Below are positions 27,802-42,486 of a stretch of DNA of 64,000 nucleotides, piece by piece (within the stretch, counting starts at the first letter, position 1; each line of letters starts with the position of its first letter). The stretch is from Sporosarcina sp. FSL W8-0480. GTDB taxonomy: Bacteria; Bacillota; Bacilli; Bacillales_A; Planococcaceae. Under the pieces are notes generated by a model, which ran no database searches, was not told the origin of the DNA, and saw only the letters and a list, made by a program, of their open reading frames with translations. Position numbers and translations under genes: made by a program. The stretch covers positions 1,805,501 to 1,869,500 of the forward strand of contig NZ_CP150166.1 of assembly GCF_037963765.1 (NCBI RefSeq), in the 5' to 3' direction.

Positions 27802-27851
27802 ATGAATAGATGTATTTTGAGTGTGAGTTTCTAATACGAATTTAAAAATGG

Positions 27852-27887
27852 AGCTGTCCAGGTAATCATCTGGACAGCTGTTTTTGT
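27852..27887 (+). terminator. Terminator after recG
   Basis: A perfect 10-bp stem (27852-27861 with 27870-27879), an 8-base loop and GTTTTTGTT. Confidence 0.92.
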
Positions 27888-27903
27888 TCAGCGCTGCGTA
27901 AAT

Positions 27904-28071
27904 GAGAAGTTTTTATTGATGAAGGAGAACTCTTTGCGAGAGAAGGAGAACTAATTAAGGAGAAAGGAGAACTCTTGACCTGGGTATGAGAATTTATCGT
28001 GGTAAAAGGAGAACTCCGAATGCCTAAACGAGAACTCCGAGCGAATTACCGAGAACTTTACTATGAAATTG
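27904..28071. repeat. Array of eight GAGAACT cores spaced exactly 21 bp
   Basis: Seven-base cores begin at 27904, 27925, 27946, 27967, 27988, 28009, 28030 and 28051, always 21 bases apart. Six read GAGAACT; the first is GAGAAGT and the fifth GAGAATT. The 14 bases between cores are not conserved, apart from a tendency to end in AAG or AC. All cores point the same way. No open frame spans the array (one frame is broken by a TGA in the fourth unit). It lies between the recG terminator and a second hairpin. I do not recognise a named family. Confidence 0.9.
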
Positions 28072-28100
28072 GACAGCCGTTATACTAAAAAGTAAATATG

Positions 28101-28136
28101 AATAAGTGCAGCCATCAATAAATGGTTGCACTTATT
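28101..28136. terminator. Inverted repeat, possible terminator
   Basis: A 15-bp stem with one G-U pair (28101-28115 with 28122-28136) and a CAATAA loop. The following TTGAAAATGG is not a good U tract, so the function is uncertain. Confidence 0.5.
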
Positions 28137-28156
28137 TGAAAATGGAAGAGAATAAG

Positions 28157-28389
28157 ATGCTGAAAGAATATAAACATGGATTTACAATACGGAAATCAGA
28201 TAAAAAAAGAGAAATGACATATTATCAAAGTTTAATATTACATATGAACCAAAAGAATATACTTTTGATGATTCATTGAACTACGACTTAGACTTATTAA
28301 GCACCACGCCGAATATTGTTGAGCTTAATAAGGCATTAGAAGAAGTTATACCCTCTGTAAGCATTTTCACAATGGCAGACTTCACTTGA
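28157..28389 (+). pseudogene. Frameshifted small ORF of unknown function
   Basis: An ATG at 28157 with GGAAGAG six bases upstream opens a frame (MLKEYKHGFTIRKSDK...) that soon ends. A different frame continues immediately after a run of seven A (28202-28208) with KRNDILSKFNITYEP... and ends at the TGA at 28387-28389. Joining the two at the A7 run would give about 77 residues, acidic and without a domain I recognise. It may be a decayed gene, a sequencing error in the homopolymer, or slippage. It sits among other gene fragments, which favours decay. Confidence 0.5.
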
Positions 28390-28391
28390 AG

Positions 28392-28435
28392 GACATTTCA
28401 GCAACCGTTCCCTTGACAGGGCGGATGTTTTTTAT
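28392..28435 (+). terminator. Weak hairpin with T6 tract
   Basis: ACAT and CCG...CCC segments (28393-28412) can pair with GGGCGG and ATGT (28419-28429) with bulges, followed by TTTTTTATTT. It may be the terminator of the frameshifted ORF just upstream. Confidence 0.35.
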
Positions 28436-28486
28436 TTAGAGGGGGGCAAAACGTGAGTTCTTAATTTCCTTTTCATCATACGAAGT

Positions 28487-28606
28487 TCTGCGCTTCAATT
28501 ATTAGACGTTGCATTTGAAAAAGAAAAACTGGCGCGAGTATATTCATTCGAACAACCCAGCCGCCGCAGGACTTCTCAGCAAAATGGGATATGATGAAAA
28601 AGAAAG
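28487..28606 (+). pseudogene. Decayed GNAT-type acetyltransferase fragment
   Basis: One frame reads SALQLLDVAFEKEKLARVY up to about 28545; a shift of +1 continues HSNNPAAAGLLSKMGYDEKE to about 28606. Together they resemble the C-terminal part of GNAT N-acetyltransferases (the LL-x-x-AF segment, then N-x-A-x-x-LL-x-K-x-GY). There is no start, no N-terminal half and a frameshift, so it is a remnant. Confidence 0.5.
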
Positions 28607-28720
28607 GGTATCGATCAAATTGCGAAGGAAATGTTGAGTAAAGGGATGCTGATAGAGCTGATTGTCGAGGTGACAAGTCTTTCAATGGAAGCGATTGGCG
28701 AACTAAACGAAGAGTTGTAA
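28601..28720 (+). pseudogene. C-terminal remnant of an Rpn-type nuclease/transposase
   Basis: A frame running to the TAA at 28718-28720 reads KGIDQIAKEMLSKGM, then LIELIVEVTSLSMEAIGEL. This matches the usual C-terminal tail of Rpn/PD-(D/E)XK recombination-promoting nucleases (E-x-G-I-x-x-IA-x-x-ML-x-x-G followed by an HTH-like helix). The nuclease domain is missing and the frame is closed upstream by a TGA at 28595. Confidence 0.5.
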
Positions 28721-28723
28721 AAA

Positions 28724-28755
28724 AGAGTGCCGGAAGCTGCTTCCAGGCACTTTTA
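28724..28755 (+). terminator. Terminator downstream of the Rpn remnant
   Basis: AGTGCC (28726-28731) pairs with GGCACT (28746-28751), with an inner GGAAG/CTTCC stem, preceded by A4 and followed by TTTAATT. It is retained although the upstream gene is broken. Confidence 0.7.
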
Positions 28756-28800
28756 ATTAATAGGACTTTTATTTTTTTCTTCCGTTTTAATCGTTTTGAT

Positions 28801-28941
28801 TTATCTAATGAAATAATAATGTTTGTAGAGTCCTAGTAAAACGATAATGATTTGAACAATGAGGATATCAATCATAAATAAAGAAAACACAATAATGATA
28901 AGGCGATTTTCTTTTACATACCCATTTTTTGTAGAAATCAA
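28801..28941 (-). CDS. Possible small hydrophobic peptide ORF (weak)
   Basis: A 46-codon frame on the minus strand from a TTG at 28941 to TAA at 28801 encodes one strongly hydrophobic segment (RLIIIVFSLFMIDILIV...) ending in HYYFIR. There is no ribosome binding site and no ATG, and AT-rich DNA often gives such frames. It could equally be noncoding spacer between the decayed island and the fapR promoter. Confidence 0.15.
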   Translation of the reverse strand: MISTKNGYVKENRLIIIVFSLFMIDILIVQIIIVLLGLYKHYYFIR

Positions 28942-28958
28942 TGTTGAACTATGATAAT
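28929..28958 (+). promoter_or_regulatory. Candidate fapR operon promoter
   Basis: TTGTAG at 28929-28934 and GATAAT at 28953-28958 are separated by 18 bases. The FapR-like operator begins nine bases downstream, where bound repressor would block initiation or early elongation. Confidence 0.5.
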
Positions 28959-28966
28959 ATACTGGT

Positions 28967-28985
28967 ATTAGTACCAAGTGCTAAT
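28967..28985. promoter_or_regulatory. FapR operator
   Basis: ATTAGTA and TGCTAAT arms (28967-28973, 28979-28985) form an inverted repeat with six of seven matches around CCAAG. This agrees with the recalled FapR box (TTAGTACC-type palindrome). FapR bound here would repress fapR-plsX-fabD-fabG; malonyl-CoA releases it in relatives. Confidence 0.85.
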
Positions 28986-29002
28986 CCGGAAGGGTGAAAC
29001 AA

Positions 29003-42201: not shown

Positions 42202-42335
42202 ACGCATAATTGTCGCCAAAAACGCATAAATCTCACCAGACACGCATAAAACTTATTTATGCGTGTTTCAACGGATTTATGCGTATCTGGCACGATTTAT
42301 GCGCATTTCACCGACTTTATGCGTGATTTGCTTTG
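42202..42335. repeat. Array of seven TTTATGCGT cores at 20-bp period with central inversion
   Basis: Three cores read ACGCATAAW at 42202, 42222 and 42242. Four more read TTTATGCGY at 42256, 42276, 42296 and 42316, the reverse complement. Within each half the period is exactly 20 bases; five bases separate the halves. Reading all units in one orientation gives a weak 20-base consensus TTTATGCGTRTYTGGCRCGA. The period is not a multiple of three and the array is noncoding. It fills the gap between trmD and repeat copy 3. Confidence 0.92.
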
Positions 42336-42362: not shown

Positions 42363-42486
42363 GTTGATTGGAGCGTAGGCCGGCGACTCCTGCGGGAATA
42401 GCATGAGCCGAAGACCCCGCAGGAGCGAAGCGACGAGGAGGCTAAGGCCATGCCCGCGGAAAGCGCCGGCCGCAGCGGAAATCAAC
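42363..42486. repeat. Palindromic interspersed repeat, copy 3
   Basis: 124 bases bounded by GTTGATT (42363-42369) and AATCAAC (42480-42486). Its outer arms carry GGCCGGCG and CGCCGGCC, a longer perfect pairing than in the other copies. The centre has GACTCCTGCGGGAATAGCAT and GAGGAGGCTAAGGCCATG. It lies directly before the rplS promoter. Confidence 0.92.

Follow-up and report, generated by a model that had tools for sequence, protein, structure and literature searches.

The gap between recG and fapR in Sporosarcina sp. FSL W8-0480 raises the question of what a row of short, nearly identical DNA words, set apart by one fixed distance and separated by otherwise dissimilar sequence, may represent. 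In the stretch analyzed here (64,000 nucleotides, referred to below as the window), eight 7-bp cores start at positions 27904, 27925, 27946, 27967, 27988, 28009, 28030, and 28051, every step being 21 bp, just as a first-pass annotation of the sequence had described. Six of the cores read GAGAACT, the first reads GAGAAGT and the fifth GAGAATT, and the word next in register, GACAGCC at 28072, does not fit the core. In the GAGAACT sense, the array lies on the same strand as recG and fapR, its first core starting 25 bp after the stem of the recG terminator. The features concerned are as follows.

27852 to 27889, plus strand: predicted intrinsic terminator behind recG, just before the array (terminator scan; stem 27852-27879, T-rich tail to 27889)
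27904 to 28071, plus strand: GAGAACT array of eight 21-bp units with the family core AAnGAGAACTC (from the core positions and the family in the genome)
27802 to 28993, no strand: recG-fapR gap, whose length differs among relatives (from 82 to 9041 bp where both genes aligned, in 18 of 20)
42203 to 42329, both strands: second array, phased at 20 bp on the core TTTATGCG, in which three cores on the minus strand precede four on the plus strand in a tail-to-tail order

Chance does not account for the first array. GAGAACT-like runs (at most one mismatch, period 21) reach a length of eight in the recG-fapR gap and of zero, one, or two in 5000 Markov shuffles of that gap. When any 7-mer core at any period from 14 to 45 was admitted, the run of eight stood against a maximum of four, reached once in 1000 shuffles. 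Shuffled sequence, which might have held as many phased arrays had the pattern been fortuitous, thus gave far shorter runs. Two further observations concern the surroundings of these arrays. Positions 28470-28720 hold a frameshifted remnant that by eye corresponds to the C terminus of a GNAT acetyltransferase, and a GC-rich segment at about 42366-42484 looks by eye like a stretch inside the recG-fapR gaps of two relatives (G064 and G061) and is perhaps another dispersed element. As to the tail-to-tail arrangement of the second array, mixed-strand TTTATGCG pairs lying close together also run minus then plus among the matches listed.

In the genome as a whole (G000; a single contig of 3.25 Mb), the pair GAGAACT-N14-GAGAACT occurs 214 times, 167 times on one strand and 47 times on the other, and its reversed control not once. 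Three or more exact GAGAACT cores occur together in 19 arrays of the 864 kb examined, where every internal step is 21, 41, or 42 bp. Among 92 units that have both neighbors, 95-96% retain A19 and A20 and 86% retain C8; the information content is 1.06 bit at T17 and 0.2 to 0.6 bit at positions 9-16 and 18. As these units were picked by their core, the conservation of the seven core letters themselves is no measurement. The conserved part of the unit is AAnGAGAACTC, about one helical turn, and the other turn is nearly free. Hence, the spacers, which had been described as unrelated over all 14 bases, are largely so, except that the A19, A20, and C8 positions beside the core are kept as well. Between arrays, spacer positions 9-18 are identical at a fraction of 0.36, compared with 0.27 expected by composition. 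Outside arrays, lone GAGAACT cores number 87 versus 69 expected, and a role as scattered single sites was rejected since the word is not clearly enriched there. Replication polarity was also rejected, as the core strand does not track GC skew (judged by eye from two tables).

The spacing itself is strict. With duplicate contexts removed, GAGAACT neighbors no more than 31 bp apart are separated by exactly 21 bp in 111 of 112 intervals in G000, which stem from about 19 arrays and are not independent of one another, and in 190 of 198 intervals when relatives are included. Steps of 10, 11, 31, or 32 bp are absent, and one of 30 bp was found. In alignable intergenic DNA outside arrays, we counted 124 indels and 1607 substitutions (0.077 indels per substitution); given that rate and the divergence of the spacers, slips should be frequent if the spacing were free. 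Unit duplication alone keeps the period within an array, so that the strict spacing is only partly independent evidence. Many of the larger GAGAACT arrays alternate between two spacer types, a trace of unit duplication of which the window array carries no clear sign.

The window array belongs to a class of intergenic arrays that is spread over the genome and built on several unrelated cores, and its initial description as a single unnamed element, while right about the array, understated its setting. A blind scan (any 7-mer in four copies or more, with periods of 14-45 and no more than one mismatch between neighbors) of 400 kb of G000, taken as 20-kb stretches at 20 evenly chosen places, returned 20 arrays, 17 of which have a main period of 20, 21, or 40-42, and none in each of five shuffles. 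Over 464 kb, a set that includes stretches picked for matches, one Markov control gave two groups in the same scan. With periods widened to 10-80 in the even set plus the window, 17 of 23 arrays lie at 20, 21, or 41. The cores found in G000 are unrelated by eye (GAGAACT, TTTATGCG, CTTGAGCGCGG, TATCACAACGTAA, ATCGATCATTT, CATCGGTGGTAAA, AATGGACC, and GAAACCGCTCGTTTA), and families differ in how they keep to two turns: all 29 steps in the TTTATGCG family are 20 bp, the 231 TTGAGCG steps comprise 180 at 20 and 48 at 21, the 33 ATGGACC steps are divided into 11 at 20 and 22 at 21, and the 96 ATCACAA steps include 78 at 21 and 16 at 19, with sums of 40. GAGAACT and AATGGACC arrays adjoin in the same gap at four places (L137 6083-6484, L139 9476-9933, L142 7552-8080, and L146 10403-11053).

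Most arrays are found behind genes. In 864 kb of G000, 68 of 75 arrays are intergenic with a period of 20, 21, or 40-42, and these occupy 38 co-directional, 20 convergent, and 10 divergent gaps; of the remainder, three phased arrays overlap weak open reading frames (ORFs) and four arrays of other periods lie inside genes. For this count, genes were taken from a simple in-house caller, 15 of the 41 sources had been picked for GAGAACT matches, and one N run was dropped. The array is closer to the end of the upstream gene in 30 of the 38 co-directional gaps (P = 0.0005), and the avoidance of divergent gaps is not significant (P = 0.24). Three relatives (G014, G005, and G035), in stretches chosen from match lists, gave 30 co-directional, 11 convergent, and 1 divergent among the 42 of 44 arrays that could be placed; these arrays have 3 to 25 exact cores. 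Arrays follow 60 gene ends at a distance of no more than 350 bp; a predicted terminator stands ahead of the array in 26 of these cases, inside it in 2, and beyond it in 6. An apparent enrichment of terminators before arrays (26 of 48 versus 71 of 201 other gene ends; P = 0.02) was obtained with longer windows for the arrays and was rejected, as it was lost on matched 90-bp windows (24 of 48, P = 0.07, and 25 of 60, P = 0.45, versus the same 71 of 201). The core strand agrees with that of the co-directional genes in 12 of 14 cases in G014, 6 of 8 in G005, and 0 of 8 in G035. In G000, the counts of same versus opposite strand are 5 and 6 for GAGAACT, 7 and 3 for TTATGCG, 5 and 0 for ATCACAA, 2 and 1 for ATGGACC, and 1 and 4 for TTGAGCG.

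The absence of any similar array from relatives, which would have suggested a fortuitous or dead repeat, was not what we found. At least three GAGAACT pairs are present in 10 Sporosarcina genomes, including the present one (G000, G004, G015, G023, G032, G033, G036, G061, G064, and G075). In a first survey, pairs occurred in 7 of 37 Sporosarcina genomes (its own included; one with only three pairs), and 24 genomes of other families gave 1 single pair; in a second, 8 of 45 Sporosarcina genomes had at least three pairs and one more had a single pair. Among 155 genomes of other genera, GAGAACT yielded two single pairs, and the reversed control matched in 14 of the 155. A wider GAGAACT scan returned at least 114 stretches, with many phyla among the matches listed, of which only those from Sporosarcina were used; S. 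luteola and S. thermotolerans are among the species with the core. Pairs of TTTATGCG occur in 12 of 68 genomes of the genus (two with only 5 and 3), with controls at 1 or 2 in five genomes, and pairs of CTTGAGCG likewise in 12 of 68 (three with one pair), with controls at 0.

The class extends to relatives that use other words. One 20-kb fapR stretch from each of 20 relatives gave five arrays with main periods of 20, 21, 40, or 42, and 15 stretches had none. Four Sporosarcina genomes devoid of GAGAACT pairs (480 kb) gave 10 arrays, of which 7 have a period of 20, 21, or 40, indicating a lower density there than in G000. Three of the cores found there are practically private to one genome. Over 12 genomes, TATCAGC forms 258 pairs in G035 and none in the other 11, CGCCAATA forms 53 pairs in G014 and none in the other 11, and GCAAGCAA forms 48 pairs in G005, 4 in G035, 1 in G000, and none in the remaining 9. 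Such counts at a shared period imply that the word changes between species whereas the lattice does not. Beyond the genus but within its family, 357 kb from 20 genomes (20 stretches, of which three were short) contained 10 arrays, only 2 of them at 21 bp with four copies each; the class looks centered on Sporosarcina, as judged from a small sample per genome elsewhere.

How such arrays change with time can be seen at one orthologous place, beside the stop codon at L142:7551. There, GAGAACT cores number 16 in G000, 8 in G023 (two reading GAGAAGT), 3 in G075 (the last reading GACAACT, with one step of 20), 2 in G036 (one reading GTGAACT), and 1 each in G077, where it stands with AATGGACC units, and G064; in G032 and G033 the place shows nothing more than a degenerate GAGAGCT. 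The flanks align at 80-88% identity in G075 and G023, and across G000, G075, and G023 the core and nearly all of the phase have largely been kept, while the spacers differ. G023 also has an eight-unit array of its own in the recG-fapR gap, close to the promoter region of fapR; one of its steps is 22 bp, several of its cores are altered, and its spacers are different. The fapR flank there is 94% identical, and this array may or may not share descent with the window array. The initial proposal of selection on spacing without recent tandem duplication is therefore retained in part: the spacing looks constrained and duplication is not fresh, yet tandem duplication has a share in these arrays, given the varying unit number at the orthologous site and the alternating spacers elsewhere.

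One family has a more defined form. In the TATCGATCATTTCCC (TATCGAT) element, five 21-bp units, the third of which is a variant, and a fixed end make up a body of about 125 bp; it occurs at 15 places in G000, and the 14 that were read and oriented have a common unit order and the same fixed end. One copy lies at L142 10884-11008, where the fixed end could form a short hairpin, and alignments taking in this copy at the orthologous place were obtained for G075, G023, G032, and G033. A sign of recent dispersal was not seen, the best non-self copy in G000 being only 85% identical. The presence of a discrete element at many places suggests that some arrays dispersed as whole elements, apparently long ago.

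What might read these arrays? We tentatively favor the view, to which we give not quite an even chance, that each is a row of sequence-specific sites to which putative cooperative proteins bind next to one another, all on one face of the DNA. A cooperative protein on one face had been proposed for the window array from its phasing, and it remains the best reading, with the proteins, their cooperativity, and their role being what we infer from the pattern in the DNA. A putative DNA-binding protein would recognize a core of about one helical turn that recurs at two-turn intervals (20 or 21 bp). Adjacent molecules would touch along one DNA face, and only intact cores at exact spacing would be held as a nucleoprotein fiber. 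Behind gene ends, such a fiber could insulate neighboring transcription units or anchor the chromosome, and as units are duplicated and lost in place, the spacers would turn over while core and phase stay. Lineages with their own cores would imply fast-changing readers. The pattern calls for a reader that recognizes about one turn, depends on exact two-turn spacing, puts up with changes in the spacers, and works mainly behind genes. The absence of GAGAACT cores 10-11 or 31-32 bp apart, distances that would preserve the face and lose the contact, fits a side-by-side protein with neighbor contacts. Counting against a protein lattice, several unrelated cores per genome would need several readers, the core strand bias of some families (GAGAACT itself is unbiased) is not required by simple face-wise binding, lone cores show no clear excess outside arrays, and three GAGAACT arrays fold better than their spacer shuffles. 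If the lattice is protein bound, it would amount to a genome-wide nucleoprotein system at gene ends, the words of which change between close species while the geometry does not.

A bolder version, a fast-evolving site code in which many tandem-site families, each with its own reader, share a common two-turn lattice and the core word is replaced between species, strikes us as conceivable and rather unlikely. If this holds, bacteria would have an equivalent of the satellite-like binding arrays that evolve together with their proteins, in this case arrays marking the ends of transcription units.

The most serious rival is that the arrays are selfish or neutral dispersed minisatellites, each family owing its spread and amplification to a recombinase, to an activity like that of a transposase, or to slippage at the core during replication. 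They would persist behind gene ends, doing little harm, and the core would be what the amplifying machinery recognizes, of no use to the cell. Because duplication by itself maintains the period within an array, this explanation has to be taken seriously, and we consider it a real possibility that falls clearly short of an even chance. The sharing of gaps by arrays of several families, the position of arrays toward the end of the upstream gene in 30 of 38 tandem gaps, the duplication apparent from alternating spacers, and the discrete TATCGATCATTTCCC element of about 125 bp, with its unit order and fixed end shared by 14 of 15 places, are all in line with it, and similar dynamics are described for staphylococcal STAR elements (PMC3532100). 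However, recent dispersal was not evident in the two families checked (TATCGAT, best copy 85%; GAGAACT, spacers near the random level), neutral drift should lose core and spacing along with the spacers, and one common period is not expected from different machineries.

Alternatively, the arrays could be DNA-topology sites in which two-turn units ease wrapping; positive supercoils accumulate behind gene ends, and gyrase or a bending protein would be drawn to the arrays there. A topology-site role has been proposed for the BIME elements of enteric bacteria. The two-turn period common to many unrelated cores and the location of most arrays behind gene ends would suit this role. Wrapping, however, needs no identical core throughout a family, yet the core and its neighbors are kept; the unit number ranges widely (3 to 25 exact cores), and on matched windows the frequency of a predicted terminator between gene and array does not significantly exceed that at other gene ends. 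We regard this explanation as improbable.

Still less probable is that the arrays act as RNA, in the form of tandem hairpins or protein-binding RNA produced by read-through or from promoters of their own. The core strand is biased relative to the genes in some families, TTTATGCG arrays can have a tail-to-tail dyad and hence a potential hairpin, and some single arrays fold well (best z score, -7.7; three GAGAACT arrays, -2.4, -3.1, and -3.7). With cores fixed and spacers shuffled, however, mean z scores were -0.65 for 17 GAGAACT arrays, -0.95 for 15 TTATGCG arrays, and +0.26 for 16 TTGAGCG arrays, the GAGAACT strand is unbiased (5 same, 6 opposite), and the predicted terminator precedes the array at 26 of 60 gene ends (2 within, 6 after). 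Moreover, the window contains no Rfam family at gathering score, and a 3.8-kb L142 stretch with three arrays gave one Rfam match, far below its threshold. Since the spacer-only shuffles gave no consistent pairing signal, structured RNA, offered as an option in the first-pass annotation, was rejected as a general rule, though single arrays fold better than these means. A coding repeat was dismissed, as no ORF of at least 50 amino acids spans 27904-28071, stops are seen by eye in the frames, and other families have 20-bp units.

Several known systems invite comparison. In plasmid iterons and centromere repeats, a cooperative protein occupies direct repeats spaced by about 20 bp, and each set lies at a single plasmid origin or centromere; by this general description, the Sporosarcina arrays differ in being dispersed over the chromosome. 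The TAACTGA repeats of Beggiatoaceae are direct repeats of a bare heptamer in two to six copies, most of them just before start codons, and resemble the present arrays in that a heptamer occurs in well over a hundred intergenic sets in one genome (PMC4679880). Binding sites of LytTR regulators are 9-bp direct repeats with mostly 12 bp (11-13) between them, 21 bp from start to start, and the pairs lie just upstream of the -35 box (PMC6193735). Our arrays share a direct-repeat period of 21, within the 20-22 bp given there, and differ from such sites in having another consensus, 3 to 25 cores, and a location mostly behind gene 3' ends. A LytTR protein as the reader was rejected because G000 has too few LytTR genes, three versus at least six core families.

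A literature search found no report of a two-turn lattice with species-specific cores, and its part restricted to Sporosarcina yielded nothing beyond one incidental paper. The closest parallel is provided by the STAR elements, whose function is given as unknown and which have a 14-bp GC-rich motif, T(G/A/T)TGTTG(G/T)GGCCC(C/A), with spacers of about 40-44 bp (PMC3532100). Like them, the present arrays are interspersed intergenic direct repeats with a conserved motif, locus-specific spacers, and a unit number that varies in place. Unlike them, they have the core AAnGAGAACTC with 14 bp between 7-bp cores, which departs from both the STAR motif and the STAR spacers, several unrelated cores coexist per genome, and cores differ between species. 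What is new is the shared two-turn lattice with species-private cores, the dynamics of spacers and copy number being known from STAR (PMC3532100). If it is protein bound, the lattice bears on what reads interspersed direct repeats in bacteria, STAR elements among them, and on why they persist.
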